In this document: positions 44,001 through 57,118 of the stretch, piece by piece
How the letters are laid out: every line of letters begins with the position of its first letter
Position numbering within the stretch: position 1 is the stretch's first letter
DNA from: Zoroaster sp. YZ-2022
Taxonomy: Eukaryota; Echinodermata; Asteroidea; Forcipulatida; Zoroasteridae
DNA length: 64,000 nucleotides
Assembly: GCA_029582265.1 (NCBI GenBank)
Contig: CM055819.1
Span: 9,918,135 to 9,982,134 of the forward strand
Reading direction: 5' to 3'
Notes under the pieces: generated by a model
What the model was told of the DNA's origin: nothing
The model's input: only the letters and a program-made list of their open reading frames with translations
Database searches by the model: none
Position numbers and translations under genes: made by a program

Positions 44001-47000
44001 AATGCGTGCGGCAATCAATGGTTGGAATAAGGAGGACAAGTGCCAGTACCTTGCTGTGCTATTGACAGGCCCTGCTCAAGAAAGTCTGCGTAGTCTACAA
44101 GCTGGGGCCAACGATTATGAAGAACTTGTGAAATCCTTACAAGCAAGATTTAACCCGACAGGGAGGAGGGAACTTCATCGATCCCAGCTAAGGAACCGCC
44201 GACAGAAGTCCACTGAAAGCATGGCAGAGTTGGCAGAGTTGGCAGAGTTGGCAGAAGAAACCCGACGGCTGGTGGACAAGGTTTATGGTGACTTACCTGC
44301 AGATAGTAGGGACAGGATGGGCCGCGATCATTTCCTCGATGCGCTCAGCGACGGAGAGATAAGGACTAGGATTATTCAAATGAGGACCAATAATCTTGAT
44401 GAAGCTGTTGCAGCTGCTGTCGAATTGGAGGCCCTTTACAAAGCTGAGAAGGAACGGCGGTCATCGGATCTACGGAAAGTGAGGAGTGCTACTGTAGAAG
44501 CAGTTCACACAGGGGAATCCGTGATTGAAGTAAACCCAGGCATGTCTGACATACAGTGACAGCTTGCCGAGATTATGGAAAAGATGAAGTCACTTGAGGA
44601 CAAAGTCAAGACCAGAAAACCAAACTGGAATAACCGGAATAAATTCACAAAAAGGGACATTGAGTGTTACAACTGCCATGGATTTGGCCATGTGAAAGCT
44701 AATTGTCCCCTACTAATGAAGAACACAGAGACGAGTGACCAAAGAGATAAATGTTCGGAAGCGAAGAGTTCTGAAAAGATACAGGGAAACTTGTAGGAGC
44801 TGCGCCTGGGGGCCAAGGAACAGCTCATATGGAAGGGCCCAATATTGACTTACTTAATACTGAGTGTGTTTCTGCAGTAGTTGGCAAAGGCCTTCGTTTA
44901 GATGTTGTAATCAACGGAGTGCATGTGGACACATTGGTAGATACCAGAGCGACAGTATCACTTCTCTCAGACAGAGTTGTCAAACAATGGTCAAATGAAG
45001 ACCAGGGAAAAGTGGGAACCACTGATGTTCAAGTTCTACTAGCTGACAGCAAGGTTTTGCCTGTGTCTGGGGAGTTAGAAGCAGAAATGCAAATTGGCAG
45101 GAATAGTGTTCAACATCGGTTCATAGTAGCATCTATAGGAAATGACATGCTACTGGGTTTAGATTTCTTGCACAATAAGCGGTGCGTTATTGATGTCACC
45201 AATAAATGTCTGGAATGGGGAGGGCTGGTTTTGCCACTTTGTGAAACGGCAGAAAGACAGAGGAGCTGTCGGGTGACCGTAGCTGAAACGGCCACAATCC
45301 CTCCATGGACAGAGATGATTATTGCAGGAAATCTGGAAGACGAAGCAATGACAGTGCCCTACGGGATAATGGAACCTGTAGAAACGTTGACCAAGAGGAG
45401 CAACATTATGGTAGCACCGTCAGTTGTTAATACTTGTGCCAATACGATACCCCTCCGCCTTGTGAACCCCAGTGATGACCATGTGACCAATTATAAAGGA
45501 ACAACCGCAGCCAGATTATGTGCAGTAGATGCAATAGGCCCTGAGCTTTCAATGCTAGAAAGCCATTATGGAAACAACGAGTTTGTAAGAACTGCCAAAG
45601 AAAACACAGTAGCAACGGAAGGCAGTGCAGTACCGAGTCATTTACAAGACCTATATCAAAGATCCTCCACGCTTCTCACAGACCAGGAGTGTTATGAACT
45701 TAAGGAAATCCTAAACAAGTATCAGCACCAATACGCAACCCAAGACGGAGATCTCGGGCGGACAGAATTGATGAAACACCGAATAGAAACAAGTGACTGT
45801 GCTCCTATCAGGCAGCGGCCAAGACGCCTACCACTCCATCAAAGAGAAGTGGCGGAAGCAGAGATCCAGTCTATGCTCAAGAAGGGCATAATAAAGCCAG
45901 CAACCGGTCCTTGGGCCTCGCCAATAGTGTTGGTGCGCAAAAAGAATGGGAAGGTCCGGTTCTGTGTAGATTATCGGCGACTAAACAAGTTACCCGGAAG
46001 GATGCGTACCCATACCACGGATTGACAAGACAATTGACAAGCTGGCTGGATCCAAGTTCTTCTCTACGTTTGATCTTGCTTCTGGATATTGGCAAGTTCC
46101 TATGGAAGACGAGCATAAACTTTACGAAACTATTTCCCTGGGTGAAGCATGCACTGCAGGGTTTCGTTTGTAAGAACCATTTTATTTATAGTTTTGTCAA
46201 GTTTCATTTAAAGTAGGCATAAGTCAAGGCATACATTGTAATGTATTGTATGGAATTTTTTTAATCATATCTGGCTTTGAATTATTGATAAAAACGATTA
46301 ACTTTACTCACACGTTTAAAGCTACAATTACTAACAACAATCCAATGTAAAGTGAATAAAACAATAATTAAAACAATAACAACATGAGTCCTGTAGGCCC
46401 TACTCCATTTTAAATTTAAAAATGGGTTTGATATTACTTGAGAAAAATGTGACAGAATTACATGAGCACATGTAAACATGTTAAAACCTACCAATTGAAA
46501 AGCAAGAAATATTTTTATGTATAATTATGACAAATTATATTATGCAATATGCCCCTAAATAGCCTCAGATTGCACCAGAGAGCATCTACAACCTAAAAGT
46601 TTCCCAGGGTCCTTAAGCGGGCCCCGGACCCCACGTTGTTGTGGCTTCGCGCTACGTGCTTGCAGATTCGTGTCATACAAATGCCCCTACGCTATAATTT
46701 CATCCTGGCTAGAACACTGGATAGGATCATCCTAGCTAATACACACTGTACACACGCGTTGTGGTAGCGTATTGTACGTATACATGCAGCAAGGATATTG
46801 GCTCATGTGCAACAAGTCTCTCAGTCGGACTGCCGTGGTCGGTGTCCCTCTCAAAGATTTCAATGCCTGAAATGTCTGTCGTAGCGGTGAGTAACGAGGC
46901 CAGTGCTGAAGCAGGTGATGCTAAAGCTCTTTCACCGCTGCCACCATGAAGTGATAGGTGTCCGAGACTTGAATAAAGTTAGTAAAACGATGGCTGTTTT

Positions 47001-50000
47001 CCTTGCTCCCGACCACGGGACTTTATTGTTTCACAGCAAGTTCTGAAAGCCCCGTGACAGTGGTGATGTACAGTACGCATGAGCGAAATAAAATAGTTCC
47101 CTATCACAACAGCATGTAACCTCAATGCTCCAAAATCCTTCACTTTAGCAAAGAGGATTTTGGAGGATTTGGGAAACGTTAGTCTGTTTTCCTTTGTTAA
47201 CGTTAACATTAGCATTACTAGCGAACTTTAATATTTAGGTATGTGCGTATCCCACGCATTGCCGCAAATCTTTTTGGCCGCGGCCTCAATCTCATGTTGA
47301 ATCGCCGTGGCGAAGACACCGTGGAAATAGCGCTTTGTTACGTTTCGCTGAGGCCGTTCTTTTTGATGTACCCAGTAGCTTTTTTTTCGAAGACGTAGAT
47401 CACATATTCTACTTCAACCTCGTTCTCGAATTTTCTGAATGCGGCATCTAGAAGATTCCAAAAAAAAATCTCGAAATTTGGGTAAAATACCTTATCAAAC
47501 CACAAAAATAATTTTTCTATACTTTTCTATACTCTTGACCAATTTTGACGGCGATTGGACGATTCCCAGTTGTTTTTTTGATTCCCAAACATCGATGTCA
47601 ACCAAAGATTGTATTGCACCACGTTCAGCGCGCGATAGACCTACCAATTTTCAGTCCGATAAATCGTCCGTTTAAACCTAATATACATCGGCGTAACACA
47701 ATAATATTAGTTCGCATGAACTTATTTCATTTTTTTTCTTCATATTTCCAGTCCAATATCATTTATTAATTTTTATGTTTAATTAAATCAGGGATAAGAA
47801 TTTCTCGCGGATTTCAGTATAAATATTTAAAATTCTCAGATTTGAGTAATTTGTTTTCCTATTTTTTAAAATTTATTTTCATTATTTTGTTTCATCTTTC
47901 CAGTCCAATATAATTTATAAATTGTTCTAATGTTTAATTAAATCAGGGATGAGAATCTTTCGCGGATTTCAGTGTAAAAATATGAAAATAATCCTCAGAT
48001 TTGAGTAATTATTTTTTTCATTATTTTTTTAATTTATTTATTTTTTTAACACATTTTTTTTGTATTTCTTATTTGTAAATCAGCACTACAAAACAAACTA
48101 ATCATTGAATTAGCCTGGAAATAGGTTATTATTCTTCCTCTTTTCCCAAGCATTCCAGTGATACCAACCTTTTGAAAATCGGACAAGAATTAAGAAAGTT
48201 ATGATATGGAATCCGAGAAAATCTAAGAAACGGGTCACAAGTCAAATTTACATTTCTTTTGTTTTTCCTTATAAAATAATTGACATTTACGGGCCTAAAA
48301 TTGCCGGATTCAACATGTCATAATTTCCTTATTTTTGGTCACAGGCAGATGATCCTTATATCATTGCAATCGTCTATTCAAGACCTTGACAATGATACTT
48401 GATAGGCCTAGTACTACCATGGAGGAAAAAATAGATTTTTTCCTCCATGGTTTTCCTCCATGGTACTACCACTAAAGGGTGCACGCCACTAAATAGTGAG
48501 GAATTCATGCGCCGAGCTATTTATCATAAAGTGTATGCCCTCAAATTTTTCTGAAAAACAAAGATTTGAGGCCCATTCATTTGATAGATTGTGTAAAAAT
48601 GGCCCACTATCATAACCTGGGGGTCCTTGGCTTCCAACTGTTAGTATTTTGGACACACTAGGCCCTGAAAAAGTGGTCCTAATTTGATTTCAAGCGTAAG
48701 GCCTTTTTCCAAAATGGCTGCTTTTCAGTGTGGACGTTTTCACTACTGTAGAGGGTGGTTTTCATTGGGATGAGAATAACTCCCTGGAAACCTGGACTTT
48801 AGACAGTAAATAGAGAAGAAAATAAAAGGTTATATATCGATCAATATTTTTTCTTTTGGTTTTAAAAACTGTGGGACTTCTAAGTATTTTTTAATGATTT
48901 TTTAATATTTTTTATTTAGCACTGTTTACTATGGGAGTTTATTTAGTGCGGTGCACCCTATATATTCAAAATGGCAGCGTCCATGGTTTGTTTTGATGGT
49001 GGAATTTAAACGTGTGCTTTTGTTTACAGTATCAGTAAGGCTGATAATAAATGAAAAATCTTTACACATTAAATTTTCCCATTCAATATCCTTGTATTTC
49101 AGGTCTTTATTGGATGAATACAGTACTGTTACAACAAAAAGGTATGTGGAATTGTGAAATTAATACCATAGTCTGCATGTGCTCTTTTTCGGCTATTGAA
49201 ATTGTTTATATTTGCCATTTATTGTTTACAAACAATACTTTTTTCTTCATTTATATATATCAAATCAGGTTTTAATTATTTTTAAGTTTTTAAACAAGTT
49301 TCTGTCCTTCATTTATGAACTTTAATAAGATCTGATTACTGGTGTACATGGGTAACTGAGGTAAAACTTCTAGCCAATAGTTTTACTGTGGTTTGCTACT
49401 AATGCTAGTTGTAAACATGGAGGCTTTTTGTGCCAAAATAAAGAGTTCTCTCGACAAGAACACACATTTGTTTGAATCTACGGGGTGTGTCATTTGGCAG
49501 GGATTCAAAAGGAAGAACTATGGACTAATGAATATCAAATTACCAGAATCAAACAAACGCACAATGATGCATGTGCACAGAGTGGCTTACATGGCACACT
49601 CTGGAATCTCTAATTTACCAGAAGAGTGTGATGTAAGTCACCTGTGCCATCATACATTGTGCGTTTGTTTTGAACATTTATCTCTTGAACCGCGATCTGT
49701 TAATAATTCTAGAAAAAGATGCAAACGACGAAGACGTTGCGCAGGCCATGGGACCTATAAGAATTGTATAATTTAGCTGCATGTAAGTCAGTCATACCAT
49801 TTTCTGTCCAAGCCTAAGCCTAACCCTAACCCCTAACCCCTAACCCTAACCCTAACACTAGGTATTGGGAAAAAAGCGATGGAAAAATAAGTATGGAATA
49901 AGCACTCAAAAAGCCTGTAATTAGTTTGGGAACTGTTTGCAATAATTGTGTTCATATTGAATTCTTTGCCAGTCGCTGTTGTCATTATTTTGCTTGGGAT

Positions 50001-53000
50001 CTAGTTGGCCACGTTTATACAGCGCCTGTGAAGCATAATACAAATGAAATCGTTTTGATTGACATTGTGCCCTACGTTTTTTGTACTGTTTTCCTTGGCC
50101 CTTTTAGAGTAGTATTTCTGTTTCTTTTCCATTTCAGCAAGGGCTTTGGCAGCTGGTGAGCCAGCAGTTACTGGGCAACCAGCAGATTCGCATTTTTACT
50201 ATTGAATTTGCGTGTCCATTATTGACCAAGTGTACTGCGCTGTGATCTCTACAGTCACCATTTCTTGAAAAGGTAATTGTCCCTTTTGGGTTTGTCATTG
50301 CAAAAGCATGATTCATAGATTCGGCTTTCTGATTGCTTGTTCCATATTTTGTTTTCTCCATCGCTAATTCTTTCCCAATTCGTTTGTCCAGTAGTTTCAA
50401 AACAGTCTGTTCATCATTTGATGACATTTTCAACTTTGATCTTACATCAGCAGGCAGGTATGGAAATTGATAGGTTGATGTAGCACCACCATGGCAAATG
50501 TATGATACTCTTTTGCACAGCCCATGGTTGCCCATGTAGCATTGTGGAATTGCGCTTGCTGCTTTGGCGGCCATGGTGGTAATCTGAGAATGGGCCCCCC
50601 TGTGCTCTTTAAGGATAGCAGCCGCCTCGGCCTGTGCCCTATGGCTTAGGTCATCAGCAAAGCGATCCTGCAGTTTACTCTTTTCCCGTCTCGTTTTACC
50701 AGGAAACATATCTGGACTAAATTTTGCACGACTTACGGCTGCACAAAGTGATCTGTTAAGATGAGGGGGTCTAGTGAATGTTCAATTTCCATACCTGCCT
50801 TGCTATGTGTATAATATGATTGTATACCCTCTGCCAGACAACCGTCGGCATCAGTGGTGACCCTATTAATTGTCAGAGGCTCCTTACAGTTCAAGAGTTT
50901 TTTGGCACATTGAATTCCGCCTTCATGTTCATCACCCATGTTGAAATTTGCTGGACGAGTGGCTGTGCATTTATCTGCATGTTTGTGTTCATTCTTGCTG
51001 ATGTCACATTTTTGGCACAGCTTGTTCTCATGGTTATACATTACAATGTATTTTTGGGTTGTCACATTTTCACAAACAATGTCCCTTGTTTGAGTTGATT
51101 GAACGAACAGTGTCTTCTTGCGGCAGTTCCTAAGGGGATTGTTATATTGTCGATCAACTTCCACAGCTACTGCACTTTCCCTATTGTAACCTTGCAATTC
51201 ATGAATGTCTTTGACAATTTTTCTCTTATCGCTCATATCCTGTTTATTTTCAAAAGTTATAATTTCCCCACATTTATTTGATAATTTCTGCAGGGCATTT
51301 CCTGAAGGAACAGTTGTATCCATTGCAGACAAGAGTTTCCTCACACCAGCAGTTGCTATCCCGGTATTGTGAAGACCAACCTGCAAAGCCATGTTGGGAG
51401 TGGCAGTGCGTCTCCCTCTCCCTGTTTGAGGAATTTCTGTGTACAGTTTTGTCTTGTCTGTATGGAACCTGCACTTTTTGCAGGACATCATCTCGGACAC
51501 GGCTAAACCTCGACGAACCTCTACATGCGGCATGAGTTCTGGTTGACCATCACACTCGGGTTTTGCTCGTTGGTGATCCAGCATGGCCTGTACCCCCAAG
51601 TTAACAGCAGCATTGACATTTACGAACCGGTAACCTCCTCTCCCATCCTGGTGATTGTCTCCACTTGTTTGCTGAAGTTGTGCTCCGCTCTTGGTTTGGA
51701 GTTTTTCAACTGGAGTTTTTCAGCAATTTTGGGCGAAGTAGCATGACGCCTCTTGTTGGCTCTGCATTGGGTGTCATACAAAAGAATCCCTGTACATCTC
51801 TGGTGACAGCTAACTCCATCTGCTCATATGATGGCCTAATATAGACAGTTGGTGAGTCTCTCTTCGTATATTCATATTTGACTTTGCCTTCTAACTTTGG
51901 AGTGATGACTGATGGATTTTTTTCTGGTACCAGCCTTTTTTCTTTTTGTAGATTCCACGCCCAACAAGACCCATTTTGCAACTGATATGCTCACAGCTGG
52001 CTTATTGCAAGTAGTGAATTAACTACATAGTGAATTATACATAGCTTCTTATACATCACCAGTGCATGTGCTCATCATTACTTAATAGTATGCATGTTTT
52101 GAACAATGAAGTGAAACCAGTTTTTCTTAGGAAAACACAAACACAGCTTGGGAGAGCACACAATGGGCATCCTCATTTAAGGTTGTTTTTTTTATTGGGG
52201 GAAGAGTGAGGCTTAATGAATTGACCAACTACTAAGCAGCTTAATCCATTGAGTGTTTCACACAGTGCATTATCATTGGAAGTTGGTTGTTATTTGTTGT
52301 CTTTAATTAGTGTTACATGTGTGTTGCATTAGTAAAATTCACAAAACTATTACAAGTAGTTGTTTCTAAAATAGTACTGGTTCAGGAATGCATGCATTAA
52401 TAATGAAGGTTTTGAAATTGTGTACAACTGATTGTACCATTCCCTGCCCCCTCTCCATCACCTCCATGTAATTTCACTTCCACCATCCAATCCCCCACCT
52501 ACAGTAACCTTTCAGAAAAACAGATCTGACACAAAATAACAACAAATTAATTTGAAAAATAACAATTTGTTTGACATGTCTGCAGTGTCTGTAGTGAAGA
52601 AAAAACTGTATATACTCTTTAAATATCTGTTTTTATCAACAATTTTTGATCAACTCTCTTTGCAAGGACCTGTATATACATGGGGGATGTATGCAGGGTT
52701 GGGGATGTTTCTTTCTCTTTGTGGTCTGTTTACCATGAAACAATTTACATTTTACATTTTCTTCTCAGCACATCATGTGAAGAAAGGCTCGTGATTTGCC
52801 CCCTCAGCGTATGATTCATTGTGTATGAGGCCCCATTTTCTGTCAACCTGGATCCGCCCCTAATAAGGTTAATTTTGTAAAACTGTCTGAAATTGCCTTT
52901 AGATAATATCTCAGATATTGTTTAAATATTAAAGGAGGAAACTAATTGTTATTTAAAGAAATTTTTAAAGAAAAACATTGCACCCAAGAAATACAATAAT

Positions 53001-56000
53001 GCATACACAATGCATGGTTATCCATTGCAAACTGCACAGAAACATCATAGACGAACCAAGTATGTTTAAAGCTGTCATTTTGCAGTGGAGTAATATTTTT
53101 AATTTTTTTTTCAGAAACATGACCTCTGCAATATACTGGATGTCCTTAGTGTGTTCCCAAGTCAAATTGAAAAAAATCATCTCTTTAAAGGGTGCACCCC
53201 ACTAAATAGTGAGGAATTCATGCGCCGAGCTATTTATCATAAAGTGTATGCCCTCAAATTTTTCTGAAAAACAAAGATTTGAGGCCCATTCATTTGATGG
53301 ATTGTGTAAAAATGGCCCACTATCATAACCTGGGGGTCCTTGGCTTCCAACTGTGAGTATTTTGGACACACTAGGCCCTGAAAAAGTGGTCCTAATTTGA
53401 TTTCAAGCGTAAGGCCTTTTTCCAAAATGGCTGCTTTTCAGTGTGGACGTTTTCACTACTGTAGAGGGTGGTTTTCATTGGGATGAGAATAACTCCCTGG
53501 AAACTAAGCTTGGGCGATGACACGATAATATCGAATATCGTGATATTTTTTTTTACGCGATTATGATATCGATAACTTTTTAAATCATCGAGATATCGGC
53601 AGATCGTGATGAAAAAAAATATATCGCGATGAAAAAAATATATCGCAATGAAAAAAAATTATCGTGAAGAAAAAAATATATCGCAATTAAACAAAATCCT
53701 CGATTGTCATTTGGGCCATAAATTCCCTGGGAAAAACCTTAGGAAGTCTTTTCAGCTTTCGTGAGAAACAAAATCGAACTACTTCTGTAGTAAACCGACT
53801 GTCAAGATCACAAAGGAGCCACCTGACAGGGTGTTGTTTAATAATCCACCGCCACTCAAAGAATTCTATTAAGACTGATTTAAGTGTTGGGATTGAGTGG
53901 GGTATTTGATCCAACAATGTGGAGACAATGTTTACGTCTCACTGTCTATCCATGGTGGTCTGTGACTCTGGCTGGCGCACCACGGGCGAGAATATTATAT
54001 CATACATATTTAAATATATGCAGAATATGGGCGTTGCCTTAAAAACACATAGTCATGAATTAATCAAAGCATGGATCGGCAGCGGCTCGATCAAAGTTGG
54101 GATTAGGACACTATTATGTTGTACCATACTGGGACTCTTGTCTTGTGTGACAAAACACATACACGTACTCTTGATAAACCATGTGACGTTTATTTAAAAT
54201 AGTGTGACTACAATCCACATTTTATGAATCATATGGTTTTATTCTCCACGGTACTATATGCAGGAATAAACCTAGTCACGTGTTTATACTATGACCCAGT
54301 TACGTGAACGCGTGAATCACGTGAACTCGGGCTGATGATTTTATTGGGACACACGACGCAGTAACCGTCCCACATAATTATTATGCAAACGATTTGCCAA
54401 TAGCGATGGGTGCGTTTTTGCGACCGTAACCAGAAACGTGTTTGGGCTTTGGTCATTGGTTGCCGCCGCAAGTTCGGTTGTGCATGCTGCGATGACATCG
54501 ATATCATGGTTCTGACCAAACGCACATAAACCGAACTTTGTGATCGGTTACGCTTAGTTTCAAGCTGGCGGATTGTAAAAAGTGTTAAAACATGATTAAG
54601 TGATTGTTCGTATACCAGTATATCTTTCAAGTTACTAGCACTCGCGAGTAAGTTCTATTTTGAGAAACGTTGATGACTGAACATGTCACAAACTGAAAAC
54701 AATTGTCTGGTTACGTTCGCATTTTCGCGTAGCTGTGCCGTTTTGTTTCTGGTTAGGGTAGCGTAAACCCGCCCCATATGTTGCACTCGTGAACGGCGCA
54801 ATTGCACGTGTCTCTCAGGTAAGCACTGGCAATTTATTGTGACACTTGTAGTAGGCAGGTCAAACACACTCACAGCACAGCTTGCCGTGTGCACGTTCCT
54901 CGTAAATACACTCGGTATGAAAAAATTGCCAACTTTTGACATGTTGTTACGATGTGAAATAACAATAAAATGAAGAAATAAATACCAGTATAGTGATGTG
55001 TGTTGTTTTATCATTCCATCGTGTGTTTTTGGGGTTGATTGGGTCCGAAAATCTTGTACTAAACACCATTTGAAAAACACCTCCGATCGACCGTGAATCG
55101 CGGAAGTGCCGTTTATCGTTGAGGGACTTCAGCACCGGGCGATTTTGGTCCCCCGATAGCCAGCAAAATTGTAGATTCCGATGCTCCTGTCAACGTAAGC
55201 GATCCAGAATCTAAAATAGACTCGAAAAGCCCAAGCTTTCATGGGTATGGTCCAAGAATTTTCAAAATGGCGTCCCGGAATGGCAAACGACGATTTGATA
55301 AGGAATTAATGTTTTTCCCCAAAAATACCTCGAAATATAACATTTCCGAATAATTATGTTAAAGTAGAGGAGTTGAACTTTATTTTACTTTTTAGTTTGT
55401 AAAGAAATTCAATGAAGAACGCTACGAAATCAGTTTCGGAAACCACTGACTACGACGACGAGTTGGATTTTTGTAACGCGGTCGAGCGCGTGTCGGGATG
55501 GAGCAGCGATGAACTCGAGCTTCTGCTCTCAGAATATCGACTTCCATGTTAGTTTCTTGTTTTTAAGTGTGCAGTTACTTAATTACTTGCAATCTTGTAA
55601 AATATATCCTAGTTCAACACAGAAAATAAGATTAAACGAGGAAAAAAATCAGAAAAAAAATGTACGTTGTTTTTCATACTGCATGGGGGTCATGCACAAT
55701 AAACGAAACGGCAATGTAAGGAGTCACGTGATATCTTGTAACTACAAACGCAATGCATACGTCACCGTCATTGATTTGTCGGCTGTTCTATCCTGTAGTG
55801 TTACTCCCGTAATTTTGAAAAAAAAATTATACTTGTTATTAAAATTAAATTTTAAAAAAGGCAGAATTTTTCATCATAAAATTAGCTTTATTTCCAACAT
55901 GTACTGTTTAAAATTTTAAAGGAATTTTTCACTTATGGAAAAACGATATTTTCTTTTTCAATTACCTTGACTTATTAAAAAAAAATTGACTTTTATCATG

Positions 56001-57118
56001 GGAAACACGAATAAAATTTATGAAGATTTAATTTTAAAAATGTTTTCTTTATTTTTTTATTTTCAACAGATCACTGGCAAGGAGTTCCAAACTTAGATTT
56101 TAGTACAAACAATACTTGTGCCAAATTTCAGGCTTGTCAGATGATCCGTTCTCAAGTTAGAGCATTTATGCATATTAATTAGTTGGACTTAGTCATTTTT
56201 CACGAAATCCATCTTGTCCCGTGATAGGACCATAGCATAATGGACCATATTTAACGAGCCCTATGTCCAAAACTAAAAAGAAATGTGGCATTATTATTTT
56301 TTTGGGATTAATTTCCCTGCCCAAATATTGGTAAAATTTAAAACTTGATTGACCAAATCTGCTAATTGATGTTGAAATATTAAAAGTAAAAATGTAAAAT
56401 ATTCAAATTTCCTCTTTTTTGACCAAAATGGCTAAAACCGCTATTTAAATTTGACCTCATTAATTTGCCATAACTCAAGAACGGAAGGTCCGATTTCATT
56501 TTTTTTTTCAGATTTGTGTTTCTTTCATCAAGCCCTTCAAGTTAAGATCCATTTGAAATGATTTACGCACAATATTAAAATTTGTGTGACCTGCCTACTT
56601 GTAGACGGGTACATCCCTGTCATTACCGGCTCTAAAGCACTCATGCGTGAAAAACAAAAATAATCGCGATATTATCGAATATCGCGATATATGTTTGACG
56701 ATATATCGTGGATGAAAAAAATCGATATCGCCCAAGCCTACTGGAAACCTGGACTTTACTAGACAGTAAATAGAGAAGAAAATAAAAGGTTATATATCGA
56801 TCAATATTTTTTCTTTTGGTTTTAAAAACTGTGGGACTTCTAAGTATTTTTTAATGATTTTTGAATATTTTGTATATTTAGCACTGTTTACTATAACTAT
56901 GGGAGTTTATTTAGTGCGGTGCACCCTTAAGTAGGCCTACCAGGCAGTTGTATTGGAATCTGTTGATTTTGAAAATTTTTGTCACATACTTATCTATAGC
57001 TATAATATTCACCAATCGAACAATAGAGCAAATACATTGGCTTACCTCTGATGAAAGTAACCGGTCCATCTACTGTGTAATAGAAAGCTTTTCCTATGAA
57101 TTCATCAAGAACACCCAT
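24866..57118 (-). CDS. NDUFB10: NADH dehydrogenase 1 beta subcomplex subunit 10, four coding exons, 150 residues
   Basis: Accessory subunit of mitochondrial respiratory complex I, in the membrane arm on the intermembrane-space side. Minus-strand coding exons: 57118-57046, 28388-28250, 28096-27957, 24966-24866. All introns are GT/AG and the frame is continuous at all three junctions. Family hallmarks: GPVTFIR at the end of exon 1; QPYYYYHRQYRHV and a CX6C pair in VEDCNMGDYVCLYEAEMQ (exon 2); RLVDQEIIVILQ and a CX11C pair (exon 3); YGGLG and a basic KQKYRLLDERKKRKE tail (exon 4). These Cys spacings match the disulfide-forming cysteines of the family. The start at 57118 gives a short N-terminus, as in some invertebrates; an in-frame ATG at 57226 is possible but its extension does not look like the family. 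Intron 1 is 28.7 kb and full of transposons. The exon 1 assignment, so far away, rests on sequence fit and splice phase. Confidence 0.9.
25729..26552. mobile_element. TIR element with AAGCCCTTTTCACACAAC ends
   Basis: Left end TAAGCCCTTTTCACACAACG and right end TTGTTGTGTGAAAAGGGCTT are inverted repeats. The interior has several CTCAAACATTGAGA palindromic motifs near the right end and GGACCACGTTGGACCACTTT near the left. About 824 bp, no transposase. Located in NDUFB10 intron 3. Confidence 0.85.
26683..27034. mobile_element. hAT-like MITE with TAGGCTTGGGCGATA ends, 352 bp
   Basis: Termini TAGGCTTGGGCGATA and TATCGCCCAAGCTTA, flanked by 8-bp CCGATAGC and CTGATAGC (26675-26682 and 27035-27042; one mismatch). 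The AT-rich interior has reiterated ATATCG words. GCTTTAGAGCCGATAA and GAAAGCTGAAAAGACT match, in reverse orientation, the two end regions of the 3.2-kb element at 53505-56740, so this is an internally deleted relative. Confidence 0.9.
27274..27900. mobile_element. TIR element made of three ~182-bp tandem units
   Basis: Ends TAGTCAATGGGCTA and TAGCCCATGGACTA are near-perfect inverted repeats. Between them lie three tandem units (about 27300, 27483, 27665), each with CCCCTGGGRATTTTTCAAGA, TTTTGTAAACCTTGACCA, a GAGGCTGTGWGGGCG block and AAATCCCGGTAATCGAC. Units 1 and 2 are closer to each other than to unit 3. C- and G-runs mark the two junctions with the ends. No coding function is claimed. Confidence 0.8.
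28441..28745 (-). repeat. Dispersed repeat, inverted copy of 14505-14960
   Basis: Reverse-complement match to the copy near 14.5-15.0 kb, with GCAAAAATTTTAACCACCTT and GCATTGAAATTCAGCA as anchors. It begins about 50 bp upstream of NDUFB10 exon 2, in intron 1. Confidence 0.8.
28911..29353. mobile_element. TIR element with TGGGTCATTCCATGAACGTG ends
   Basis: Left end TGGGTCATTCCATGAACGTG, right end CACGTTCATGGAATGACCCA, perfect over 20 bp and continuing to GGGAC. The terminal GGGTCATTCCATG is shared with the larger element at 31919-33646, so both may be mobilised by one transposase. 443 bp, no ORF. A SINE follows immediately. Confidence 0.85.
29357..29716 (-). mobile_element. tRNA-derived SINE, full length
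   Basis: Minus-strand copy: (ATT)n tail at 29357-29370, CTTGAGTACCAGTTTGGTGG, the central GCTCCCTGGGGAGTATACAG block, then B box and A box complements (GGGATTCGAACCCACA, CCGCTCGACCATGG). Closest to the copies at 18474 and 37098. Confidence 0.92.
29752..29975. mobile_element. Partial relative of the 11236-11653 MITE
   Basis: Reiterated ACAAACTC(G/A)(C/T)CC motifs followed by CATTATTATAAAGGCA, as in the left half of the 11.2-kb MITE. The opposite end is missing, so this is a truncated copy. Confidence 0.7.
30285..30560 (+). repeat. Dispersed repeat R, uninterrupted copy
   Basis: Contains CATGACTCCTACCCCACACG, ATTATTGGCCATTACTATAA and CTCGCCAAATGTCAGC. The reverse complement lies at 33660-33805 plus 35921-36060, where a 2.1-kb element splits it exactly in the GGCCATTAC segment. 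This copy therefore shows the empty target site. Confidence 0.85.
30561..31918. other. Unassigned 1.3 kb; possible LTR-like segment
   Basis: Moderately GC-rich compared with its surroundings. A TATATAAACCCAGAG TATA-like box lies at 31235 and an AATAAACC polyadenylation-like word at 31738, the spacing of an LTR. No terminal TG..CA pair with a duplication could be established, and no gag or pol lies next to it. Open frames here resemble nothing known to me. Confidence 0.3.
32714..33118 (+). CDS. Conserved-looking 134-residue protein inside TIR element
   Basis: I do not recognise a named family, but the segment YDSFPWIGMVDKVSEEFGDY followed by INFIHPHGP, FNWPSQTDKCW and a later TS-containing tail resembles, from memory, a C-terminal module seen in predicted invertebrate proteins: an aromatic W-x-G-x-V strand, then a MHPHGP motif, then W-P-x-x-D-x-CW. 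That layout suggests a small beta-barrel, Tudor/SH3-like fold; this is inference. The frame is open with an ATG start and a TGA stop. It could be the last exon of the autonomous element's protein, kept in a deletion derivative, or a captured host exon. Confidence 0.5.
   Translation: MYNLLKPFKLGSEPEPMLQLEIKEQNFVCCLYDSFPWIGMVDKVSEEFGDYHINFIHPHGPAKQFNWPSQTDKCWDTEDNILCKINTPSLTSFISRISSTYMYNGLHGTCDVFGAPSINYFRTQVFRALASTSN
33175..33325. repeat. ATTTATC/ATTTATATTTATC minisatellite
   Basis: About 150 bp of alternating TTTATCATTTATA and TTTATATTTATCAT units between the small ORF and the right end of the TIR element. Confidence 0.95.
34122..35247 (-). mobile_element. CR1/L2-type LINE, 5' truncated
   Basis: Inserted at GGAGAT/AGAGAT in a unit whose uninterrupted duplicate survives at about 35430-35550 (CATGGAGATGTTAAAAATGT), giving the pre-insertion sequence. 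The 3' tail on the minus strand reads CGCCTTGAGCACCCAGCAGG, GTGGATATGTGCGCGC, then TTTATTATTATTATC. It starts in the palm of the reverse transcriptase, so it is about one third of a full element. Confidence 0.9.
34281..35247 (-). pseudogene. LINE reverse transcriptase C-terminal part, one frameshift
   Basis: Begins at NNISVPQGSVLGP (palm motif B), continues through the catalytic YADDTQLY box and the thumb segment SWMRQNFLKLNDEKTE. A frameshift at about 34820-34840 then leads to CLIRKYLNKSAAEQIIHAFV, a segment ending in LYGL, and HWLPVSQRIVFKL. It ends in FKSMLKTHLMSQL, the usual C-terminus of CR1/L2-like ORF2. The catalytic DD pair is present, but the copy is truncated and shifted, so it is dead. 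Confidence 0.92.
36036..36614. mobile_element. Foldback (long inverted repeat) element, ~580 bp
   Basis: The outer arms, about 105 bp each, start TGGGGTAGGAGCCATGTTCT and run through CAGCGACAAATT, AATTATTCTAAAAATA, GAAGCATTTGGACTAGGGCC and CAATACACT, with the inverse ending at CTCCTACCCCA. A second inner inverted pair, AAGCAGACACTTTTGGCAT, lies around 36260 and 36380. No ORF. The arms include sequence of the 89-bp MITE at 13602. Confidence 0.85.
36769..37629. mobile_element. Inverted-repeat element with a SINE in one arm
   Basis: Arms CCTGTTTTCGTTGGCTGAAC (36769) and its inverse ending at 37629 extend for about 170 bp (36769-36940 with 37466-37629). An inner inverted pair around CCTTGGGGTCAGAA and TCGATTGCRCGGCAGAAC (36950-36981 with 37039-37076) forms the hairpin centre. 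The 370-bp SINE at 37098-37468 sits between the centre and the right arm and is the younger insertion. Confidence 0.85.
37098..37468 (-). mobile_element. tRNA-derived SINE, full length
   Basis: Minus strand; (ATT)n tail at 37098-37122, GCGCACGTATCC, GGTGCTCAAGGCG, the central TCAGCTCCCTGGGGAGTATA block, TACCCATTTACCCCTGGGTG, and the head ending CACTCGACCATGGCACTC. Nearly the same as the 18474 copy. Confidence 0.93.
37971..38345 (-). mobile_element. tRNA-derived SINE, second subfamily
   Basis: Minus strand; long (ATA)n at 37971-38010, then TGTGTGGATTTATATAGCGC, CCACCAACTAAGTGGTGCTC, the central block and a head reading (on the minus strand) GCCGAGCGGTCTAG and AACTTG-type anticodon arm sequence like tRNA-Leu(CAA). 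Contains a small tandem duplication CATAAGGCT. Confidence 0.92.
38346..38780. other. Short spacer before LINE
   Basis: ACATTGTACATT-rich stretch and a CAGTCAAAAACAGTTAGTTG hairpin near 38590. No gene. Confidence 0.4.
38790..41062 (+). mobile_element. Non-LTR retrotransposon (Jockey/CR1 superfamily), 5' truncated
   Basis: Covers the ORF2 linker, reverse transcriptase and C-terminus, then a 3' UTR ending in GTTTTAATAAACCAGAAATA and an (AATA)n/(AAT)n tail. The endonuclease domain is absent, so the copy begins within ORF2. The 5' border is approximate. Confidence 0.88.
38807..40917 (+). pseudogene. LINE ORF2 reverse transcriptase, one late frameshift
   Basis: The long frame 38807-40558 (583 codons) carries the RT domain in order: KAGGPDGIPVSLIHEFAYEL (motif 1/2a), RPVSLTDHFAKISEHFIVQW (fingers), VVTDFSKAFDHIDHN (motif A with catalytic D), GGVPQGTKFGPLGFL (motif B) and KYVDDMTIV (motif C, YVDD), then NNMNINSSKCANM and LGIWISSNLKWDKHID (thumb). 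A frameshift after YKGYIRL near 40550 moves the C-terminal 120 residues (TEYATQAWNAG, LESIQKRTLKIIL) into another frame, ending at 40917. VPQGTK and YVDD point to a Jockey/CR1-superfamily lineage other than the L2-like copy at 34 kb. The missing endonuclease and the frameshift make it non-functional. Confidence 0.93.
41178..41432. mobile_element. TTAA-flanked MITE, copy 1 (255 bp)
   Basis: Flanked by TTAA (41174-41177 and 41433-41436), with inverted ends CCAGTTCGC and GCGAACTGG. GC-rich interior with CACCGGGAATAAAAAAG, CGTGGCGGGTTTATTTT, GAGCGTGACCGGGGAGACCG and CACGTCGACCGGGAATCTAT. A copy about 96% alike by eye lies at 63167-63420 in the same orientation. TTAA specificity is the mark of piggyBac-type transposition. 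Confidence 0.92.
41437..42100. repeat. Dispersed repeat, TGATGACGTCATCA-containing
   Basis: Segments such as AACTTCCAGTTTGGACCGGA, GATATCTGATGAT, GACGTCACAACTT and GGTCTAAGTATATGTCAA recur in diverged form near 59725-59790 and 62010-62130. No gene. The left part of the gypsy element may start beyond this, about 42060-42830, but an LTR could not be delimited. Confidence 0.55.
42840..43600 (+). pseudogene. Gypsy gag N-terminal extension, low complexity
   Basis: Open mainly in one frame after an early shift near 42890. It holds a helical segment (LHVEEQCRRVSREIETVTQS) followed by a Pro-, Gly- and Gln-rich region to the stop at 43600. No domain recognised; attributed to gag because it runs directly up to the gag core. 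It could also be an unrelated leader ORF. Confidence 0.45.
43860..44796 (+). pseudogene. Gypsy gag core and zinc knuckle, interrupted
   Basis: Starts in one frame with RDRYDGKRSWDAYIKHYF and shifts near 44000 into the frame carrying INGWNKEDKCQYLAVLLTGP, AQESLRSLQAG, ARFNPTGRREL and the usual retrotransposon gag helices. A triplicated LAE unit (about 44226-44255) is a slip duplication. A TGA at 44557-44559 interrupts the frame, which then resumes in phase with a CX2CX4HX4C knuckle (CYNCHGFGHVKANC) and ends at 44796. One shift plus one stop make this copy defective. Confidence 0.85.
44829..46175 (+). pseudogene. Gypsy protease and N-terminal reverse transcriptase
   Basis: In a different frame from gag. 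The aspartic protease region has VDTRATVSLLSD at about residues 37-48, where the active-site triad is D-T-R rather than the usual D-T/S-G, and LLGLDFLHN further on as the flap-distal motif. The RT begins with RQRPRRLPLHQREVAEAEIQ, MLKKGIIKPATGPWASPIVL and VRFCVDYRRLNKL, typical of Ty3/gypsy. A frameshift at about 45990 then continues in another frame through DKLAGSKFFSTFDLASGYWQ, and the sequence is lost after about 46175. The YxDD box is absent. Protease lesion, shift and truncation all mark it as dead. Confidence 0.92.
46176..47744. other. Intronic spacer, no gene recognised
   Basis: Contains the GC-rich patch GCGGGCCCCGGACCCCACG near 46620 and the small hairpin at 47128-47170. No element with both ends visible and no coding frame of note. 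Confidence 0.4.
47128..47170. repeat. Hairpin, inverted sister of 3559-3600
   Basis: CTCCAAAATCC and GGATTTTGGAGGA arms around TTCACTTTAGCAAAGA; the loop is the reverse complement of the loop at 3.57 kb. Confidence 0.7.
47745..48015. repeat. Two tandem copies of ~155-bp AT-rich unit
   Basis: Copy 1 from 47745 and copy 2 from 47897 share TTTCCAGTCCAATAT, TTTAATTAAATCAGGGAT, TCGCGGATTTCAGT and CTCAGATTTGAGTAAT. Confidence 0.85.
48016..48476. other. Intronic spacer with CATGGAGGAAAA palindrome
   Basis: AT-rich. A palindrome CCATGGAGGAAAAAATAG / TTTTTTCCTCCATGG with a repeated arm is at 48417-48462. No gene. Confidence 0.5.
48477..48960. mobile_element. 484-bp TIR element GGGTGCAC, copy 1
   Basis: Left end GGGTGCACGCCACTAAATA, right end TTATTTAGTGCGGTGCACCC. 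Nearly identical (about 98-99% by eye over the left 300 bp) to the copy at 53190-56926. The outer bases allow a TA or TTAA-like target, but the duplication is not clear. No ORF. Confidence 0.85.
49417..49776 (+). CDS. His-Cys-box (I-PpoI-like) His-Me finger endonuclease, 119 residues
   Basis: Small predicted DNA endonuclease. The start is the ATG in AAACATGG (good Kozak context), with a second in-frame ATG at 49402. The N-terminal half has GCVIWQGF, YGLMNIKL and HVHRVAYMAHSG, the usual strand-helix lead-in of zinc-binding His-Me nucleases. The core SHLCHHTLCVCFEHL places His (general base), Cys +2, Cys +7 and His +12 exactly as in I-PpoI. Asn at +21 (the metal-binding Asn of I-PpoI) and Cys +27 also match, followed by a second metal cluster C-x2-H with a later Cys at the C-terminus (CAGHGTYKNC). 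All the expected catalytic and zinc residues are therefore present and the frame is intact. Its 3' end faces the Mutator-like transposase gene 144 bp away. The function is inferred from motif spacing. It could be part of that transposon or an independent homing-type gene. Confidence 0.85.
   Translation: MEAFCAKIKSSLDKNTHLFESTGCVIWQGFKRKNYGLMNIKLPESNKRTMMHVHRVAYMAHSGISNLPEECDVSHLCHHTLCVCFEHLSLEPRSVNNSRKRCKRRRRCAGHGTYKNCII
49810..49858. repeat. Interstitial telomere-like (CCCTAA)n tract
   Basis: About 49 bp of CCTAA, CCCTAA and CCCCTAA words, i.e. imperfect TTAGGG repeats on the minus strand, in the 144-bp gap between the endonuclease and transposase 3' ends. Confidence 0.9.
49921..51974 (-). 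pseudogene. Mutator-like (MULE-type) DDE transposase, several frameshifts
   Basis: DNA transposase of the Mutator-like family common in predicted proteins of cnidarians, echinoderms and molluscs; the family is recognised from memory. Reading from about 51974: a short basic start (MGLVGRGIYKKKKGW), a region ending GVMLLRPKL, then GGYRFVNVNAAVNLGVQAML, SEMMSCKKCRFHT (zinc-like CX2C), NMALQVGLHNTGI and VRKLLSAMDTTVPSG. The likely catalytic residues are D in VAVEVDRQYNN, D in VTTDADGC, and E in NQKAESMNHAF. It ends with FSRNGDCRDHSAVHLVNNGH, KCESAGCPVTAGSP and a basic tail to the stop at 49921. Frame changes at about 51920, 51710, 50768 (C-run), 50190 (A-run) and 50100 (A-run) break it. The catalytic triad is intact, so this is a recently dead copy or one with sequencing indels. 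Confidence 0.88.
51975..53189. other. Upstream flank of the transposase; no gene
   Basis: Expected to hold the transposase promoter and the right end of its element. I could not find an inverted partner for any part of it in 48960-49400. AT-rich, with no exon supported. Confidence 0.4.
53505..56740. mobile_element. hAT-like 3.2-kb element, TAAGCTTGGGCGAT ends, 8-bp TSD
   Basis: Ends TAAGCTTGGGCGAT and ATCGCCCAAGCCTA, flanked by a perfect 8-bp duplication CTGGAAAC (53497-53504 and 56741-56748). Copy 1 of the host repeat at 48.7 kb has a single CTGGAAAC, an exact empty site. Both subterminal regions are rich in ATATCG/CGATAT words. No hAT transposase domain is seen on either strand. Its two ends match the 352-bp MITE at 26683-27034. 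Confidence 0.93.
55412..55552 (+). CDS. Short acidic ORF, 46 residues, exon-like, inside the hAT-like element
   Basis: Open from ATG 55412 to TAG 55552. Composition is unlike random AT-rich frames: an acidic stretch TTDYDDELDFCNAVERVSGW then SSDELELLLSEYRLPC. A donor-like CCATGTTAGT coincides with the last codons, so it could be a first coding exon (splicing at 55547/55548) rather than a complete gene. I do not recognise the family. It may be a captured host exon or a relic of the element's own protein. Confidence 0.35.
   Translation: MKNATKSVSETTDYDDELDFCNAVERVSGWSSDELELLLSEYRLPC

Follow-up and report, generated by a model that had tools for sequence, protein, structure and literature searches.

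A probable KolobokP-type composite transposon with convergent transposase and His-Cys-box nuclease genes in the genome of Zoroaster sp. YZ-2022

A small nuclease gene and a broken transposase gene face each other within a 64,000-nucleotide stretch of the Zoroaster sp. YZ-2022 genome (assembly GCA_029582265.1, contig CM055819.1, positions 9,918,135 to 9,982,134; here called the window), raising the question of whether the two are chance neighbours or parts of one mobile element. With a probability that we put at about 0.95, they belong to a composite DNA transposon of KolobokP type, present here in a decayed state, in which two long terminal direct repeats (LTDRs) flank an internal region (INT) that carries a DDE transposase and a convergent His-Cys-box nuclease (LTDR-INT-LTDR). 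The architecture of this element, its repetition in the genome, its terminal inverted repeats, 4-bp target duplications, solo LTDRs and tandem units were all observed directly. An original prediction, made from the letters of the window, had proposed a two-nuclease transposon of a kind not previously described; the proposal was right in substance, and the two genes do form a linked pair, but this kind of transposon, with the same gene pair, was published in 2022 as KolobokP (Kojima & Bao 2022, Mob DNA 13:24, PMC9587614, main text).

The gene pair is flanked by a direct repeat (48473-48772 versus 53186-53485, 99%). The 482-bp limits of the LTDRs were set by comparison with 20 further genome stretches chosen around the best nuclease matches, and the whole element was found to span 48477-56926, wider than the limits initially assigned to the pair (49417-51974). 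Each LTDR starts with GGGTGCAC and ends with GGTGCACCC, and in the commonest form these termini are inverted repeats of each other over as much as ~19 bp. In the window, the left LTDR has the inverted ends GGGTGCACGCC...GCGGTGCACCC; the commonest ends in the family are GGGTGCACCCCACTAAATA... and ...TATTTAGTGGGGTGCACCC, with variants among the copies. A complete unit with both genes was present in 18 of the 20 fetched stretches (L009-L011, L013-L021 and L023-L028), L012 and L022 representing partial units. The 18 complete units are colinear end to end, with equal ends and lengths of ~4.9-5.3 kb, and all possess LTDRs with inverted ends, in agreement with the expectation that shared terminal inverted repeats lie outside both genes. 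Nuclease frames of at least 128 aa were found in 15 of these units, as well as in the window copy, and open transposase frames (690-694 aa) in two. Target duplications were scored at monomers and at solo LTDRs. Nine of the 13 monomers with both outer ends visible, the window counted (L016, L018, L019, L020, L023-L026 and L028), are flanked by exact 4-bp duplications (TCAG twice, CTCT, ATAT, ATAA, AGCA and ATCA three times), as are five of seven solo LTDRs. Two of the ATCA copies have the same flanks, one of them starting without a G; L024 and L025, which have flanks in common, may represent one event.

In KolobokP, as described in the main text of Kojima & Bao (2022; PMC9587614), the LTDRs measure ~450 or ~660 bp and terminate in short inverted repeats (5'-RR ... 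YY-3'), and the INT encodes a transposase and, downstream of it in convergent orientation, a His-Me nuclease in which eight His/Cys residues are conserved; solo LTDRs, (LTDR-INT)n-LTDR multimers and 3-5 bp duplications of variable sequence are reported from seven animal phyla. The window family corresponds to this description in its LTDR length (482 bp, versus near 450 bp) and 5'-GG...CC-3' inverted ends, and in its gene pair, solo LTDRs, arrays and short variable duplications, while its INT starts with TATA, as does that of KolobokP-1_MeMe. Its units are longer than the oyster KolobokP families given there (4,022-4,748 bp), and it carries a telomere-like minisatellite between the stop codons and a palindromic inverted end, neither of which turned up in word searches of that main text. 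The same text likens KolobokP to bacterial composite transposons, in which two mobile end-units flank an internal region and move jointly or singly; in the latter, however, the transposase is located in the flanking units, whereas in the window element it is located in the internal region. The minisatellite comprises 2 to 17 CCCTAA words in every main-family unit matched by script and persists, in decayed form, in older deleted copies.

The original prediction had described an intact I-PpoI-like nuclease ORF facing a Mutator-like transposase gene, with 144 bp between the stop codons of the convergent genes. The nuclease ORF and the arrangement were corroborated by a Pfam match (PF05551, 8.1e-11) and by the coordinates, and the transposase gene is broken, since it differs from an open-frame copy, to which ~49924-52001 is homologous, by eight indel events (six deletions and two insertions). 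The 'Mutator' part, conversely, had to be given up in view of the 4-bp duplications, a DxxH motif and a finger preceding the last E; the label is only the Pfam name of PF20700, the family matched by transposase ORF 50733-51599 (2.5e-36). This best Pfam name is what favours a Mutator-type (MuDR) element that acquired a nuclease, but target duplications of Mutator elements are usually 8-11 bp, those observed here are mostly 4 bp, and the element is bounded by direct repeats with GG...CC ends. In an alignment of 14 transposases, D284, D385/D387, H415 (of DPPH), C489, H494 and C497 were invariant and C504 and E561 nearly so; DPPH represents the C/DxxH motif, and a Cys/His finger precedes the last E. 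These roles were assigned by eye following the main text of Kojima & Bao (2022; PMC9587614), in which Kolobok transposases are characterized by a C/DxxH motif and a zinc finger between this motif and the last E, and the KolobokP transposase by a CCHC zinc finger that follows the first catalytic D. The Cys/His finger of the window family sits between catalytic residues two and three, where MuDR has none according to that text, and on this and the preceding grounds a MuDR origin is considered very unlikely.

To what extent the two genes occur together was assessed across the genome (1.0 Gb in 616 contigs, with the window on C4), in a search that yields lower bounds, further matches existing beyond those listed. 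At least 152 nuclease and at least 148 transposase matches were listed, which after merging gave 108 loci for the nuclease and 63 for the transposase. Among the matches listed, 56 of the 63 transposase loci had a convergent nuclease at no more than 2.5 kb, and the spacing between the matched parts was 876-1262 bp in 55 of the 56 pairs and 70 bp in the other. The pairing is beyond chance because so many matches of both kinds are convergent at a near-constant distance, and the view that the pair travels together as one transposon is thereby upheld. Of the seven unpaired transposase loci, one starts 315 bases from a contig start, one, on C20, is a diverged copy (53% identity), and the other five are short fragments, two of which adjoin a nuclease match.

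Nuclease genes apart from the transposase, named beforehand as a finding that would separate the two, do exist: 52 of the 108 nuclease loci are without a transposase match among the matches listed, and 13 of these were inspected. Five (L029-L032 and L034, on C16, C22 and C5) have lost a common part of the transposase (window ~50123-52991) and have flanking DNA in common; because the same stretch is gone and the flanks are shared, they are one old transposase-deleted insertion copied inside a larger, repeatedly duplicated segment, and an independent spread of the nuclease on C16, C22 and C5 was rejected on the same observations. Many nuclease matches were seen on C16 at 26-33 Mb. Three further loci are broken or truncated copies that keep transposase pieces, namely the truncated L022, which has the 3' part of the gene, L036, which has another internal deletion and retains a piece of the gene, and the broken second unit of L011. 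The remaining five (L033, L035 and L055-L057) form a second family of nucleases, 31-48% identical in protein sequence to the window family over the main match, for which no transposase match was found within the 3-6 kb fetched. Members of this family share a stretch of ~660 bp (L033:2531-3186), L033 has an open frame of 137 aa, and long flanks are common to L035 and L055-L057. The 52 loci, the second family included, are what speaks for a homing-type nuclease gene having landed beside a dead transposon at one place; set against the convergent pairs, their spacing, and the 18 colinear units with shared ends outside both genes at many places, such an accident is exceedingly improbable.

In an LTDR search, 40 of 2801 candidates were scored, and 18 stretches were fetched from that list. 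These comprised seven solo LTDRs, seven right LTDRs with INT to their left, one left LTDR, one short non-autonomous composite (duplication AGCA) and two LTDR-LTDR dimers, L037 (spacer TATA, flanks unmatched) and L038 (spacer TATATA, flanked by TCAA), whose joined LTDRs may be left over from circle junctions or from the loss of INT. Tandem units were found on C6, C9 and C16, mostly at a spacing of 4.4-4.5 kb. The cluster on C6 has the outer ends ATAT (left) and AGCA (right), which neither support nor refute the insertion of a single array because the cluster is interrupted (L012). A single chromosome-scale assembly of a large animal genome shows KolobokP as a family of many copies, among which monomers, solo repeats and arrays all occur. 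Protein database relatives numbered six for the nuclease and 21 for the transposase, and in eight of the 21 transposase rows the longest contig is 4.1-4.5 kb, near one LTDR-INT unit in size, which would fit collapsed arrays or circles. A non-autonomous element resembling a long terminal repeat (LTR) retrotransposon, having captured two genes and copied its LTRs by reverse transcription, would likewise present long direct repeats, 4-bp duplications and solo repeats, but its likelihood is negligible, as the inverted ends of up to ~19 bp start with GG rather than having the form TG...CA, inspection by eye (no profile search was made) revealed neither a primer-binding site or polypurine tract where INT ends nor a reverse transcriptase within the units, and the main text of PMC9587614 treats KolobokP as a DNA transposon and hence excludes template switching during reverse transcription as the source of arrays.

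Several observations weigh against the assignment to KolobokP. An exact 4-bp duplication is missing at four of the 13 monomers (the window, L017, L021 and L027) and at two of the seven solo LTDRs (L041 and L042); the flanks of the window copy, TAAA and TTAA, match over no more than 3 bp (TAA), provided that the ends are taken to be A...T. The CCHC finger of KolobokP (C330, C333, H, C346) is readable in the window family, and C330 and C346 are invariant among the 14 aligned transposases, yet the second Cys does not line up across relatives. Membership was judged from the features in the published description. Finally, neither gene bears the mark of purifying selection within the family, the outcome expected of decayed copies, because the ratios of nonsynonymous to synonymous changes (N:S) do not depart accordingly from a neutral expectation of 2.6-2.7: the nuclease has 22:4 among single-copy variants and 1:1 among shared variants, and the transposase 65:21 (plus two stops) and 22:6, respectively.

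A signal of homing or of selection on the nuclease within the family was also rejected, on the grounds of these ratios and of a sliding diversity profile of 19 aligned units, in which the nuclease is similar to the transposase. Several nuclease copies are identical across 393 bp although their transposases differ. Indels per kb per copy amount to 1.55 in the nuclease, 3.82 in the transposase and 2.90 in non-coding INT 487-908, and homopolymer runs make up 2.5% of nuclease and 4.5% of transposase bases; the low indel rate of the nuclease was not accepted as selection, considering this lower homopolymer share and the value for non-coding INT. A comparison of the window nuclease with its L033 counterpart gave a dN of 0.385 and a saturated dS, and selection on the nuclease between families is likely.

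The nuclease frame is open from ~49381 to a stop codon at 49774-49776, with candidate starts at 49393 (TTG), 49402 (ATG) and 49417 (ATG), and it matched PF13392 (3.8e-6) besides PF05551. A profile of nine nuclease sequences matched I-PpoI chains of the PDB across the His-Cys box (E 0.0015-0.0037), a stronger match than that of the single sequence (E 0.11-0.15 only), and I-PpoI ranked top, weakly, in a PDB fold search (E 0.02; TM 0.53 by query length) with an AlphaFold2 model of the nuclease (pLDDT 80.5). The nuclease is related to I-PpoI in sequence and fold, the fold match being weak. Its alignment contains His and Cys residues that presumably bind zinc, as their counterparts in I-PpoI do. 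Eight such candidate ligands were readable, the number given in the KolobokP description. Eukaryotic His-Cys-box homing endonucleases such as I-PpoI have the catalytic His-Cys box and the candidate zinc ligands in common with the window nuclease; the I-PpoI type, however, sits in a group I intron and measures 162-163 aa, whereas nucleases of the window family are carried by a DNA transposon and measure 119-131 aa. Viral contigs were scanned three times, with the nuclease sequence and with profiles of the nuclease and of the transposase, and no relative was found, whereupon a virus-like origin was rejected.

What the nuclease might cut is the point that the published model leaves open, abutted ends or an internal LTDR site being proposed in the main text of Kojima & Bao (2022; PMC9587614), which mentions palindromes solely in connection with I-PpoI-like sites and with abutted ends. 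A perfect 10-bp palindrome, GGGTGCACCC, was found at 59 of the 72 LTDR ends of the 18 complete units and its 8-bp core GGTGCACC at 70, and GGGTGCACCC occurs in no internal region of these units. The notion of the palindrome as a fixed feature was rejected, since 11 of 18 units carry the 10-bp form at each of their four ends; in the window copy, a single end (53190) has it, and three of four have the 8-bp core. Among older relatives, it is intact at the right end of the left LTDR in L029, L032 and L034, with one base changed in L031 and L036. In the window, as in some copies, the right LTDR end reads GCGGTGCACCC, which reduces the 10-bp palindrome to the 8-bp core (53190 versus 48477, 48958 and 56926) and is possibly the mark of a subfamily.

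GGGTGCACCC is a candidate site of the nuclease, which would then cut the ends of its own transposon; a palindrome would suit an I-PpoI-like homodimer, but we regard this role as unlikely. The transposase alone may account for conservation of the palindrome, with no part played by the nuclease, since the palindrome is contained in the end repeat to which the transposase is expected to bind. Judged from related families, the transposase would bind the inverted LTDR ends and mobilize one LTDR on its own or the element as a whole. The nuclease, acting as a homodimer like I-PpoI, may cut within the LTDRs or at their ends, and in the published model repair of the break against another repeat, by unequal exchange, would lead to gain or loss of LTDR-INT units and hence to arrays. 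If the nuclease does cut LTDR ends, as many as four cut sites would be available per element, all with the same TGCA centre, and cleavage would drive the growth of arrays, the fusion of LTDRs across spacers of 4-6 bp (as in L037 and L038) and the formation of LTDR-INT circles. What the nuclease cuts could be tested precisely on one named palindrome, GGGTGCACCC.

The features of the window copy are compiled in Table 1.

Table 1. Parts of the transposon copy in the window and of the sequence inserted into it
Feature	Coordinates	Strand	Basis or remark
Left LTDR, 482 bp	48477-48958	.	Direct repeat and comparison with fetched copies
INT, begins TATA, ends TTTAAA	48959-53189	.	
I-PpoI-like His-Cys-box nuclease ORF, intact	49417-49776	+	ORF list, Pfam, alignment, profile
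Telomere-like minisatellite (CCCTAA/CCCCTAA)n, between both stop codons	49813-49857	.	
Broken DDE transposase gene, Kolobok type, PF20700	~49921-52001	-	Pfam 2.5e-36; match to open-frame copy
Right LTDR, first part	53190-53504	.	Direct repeat and copies
Later insertion splitting the right LTDR, foreign to the element	53505-56740	.	Ends TAAGCTTGGGCGAT / ATCGCCCAAGCCTA
Duplicated target of the later insertion	56741-56748	.	8-bp duplication CTGGAAAC
Right LTDR, second part, terminus GCGGTGCACCC	56749-56926	.	

The window copy is probably immobile, given the breaks in its transposase frame and the split in its right LTDR. The 3.2-kb insertion responsible for the split (53505-56740), with its 8-bp duplication CTGGAAAC, appears to be hAT-like. 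Adjoining the element, ORF 44829-46025 resembles a retrotransposon protease and the start of a reverse transcriptase (Ty3/gypsy-like, as judged by eye).

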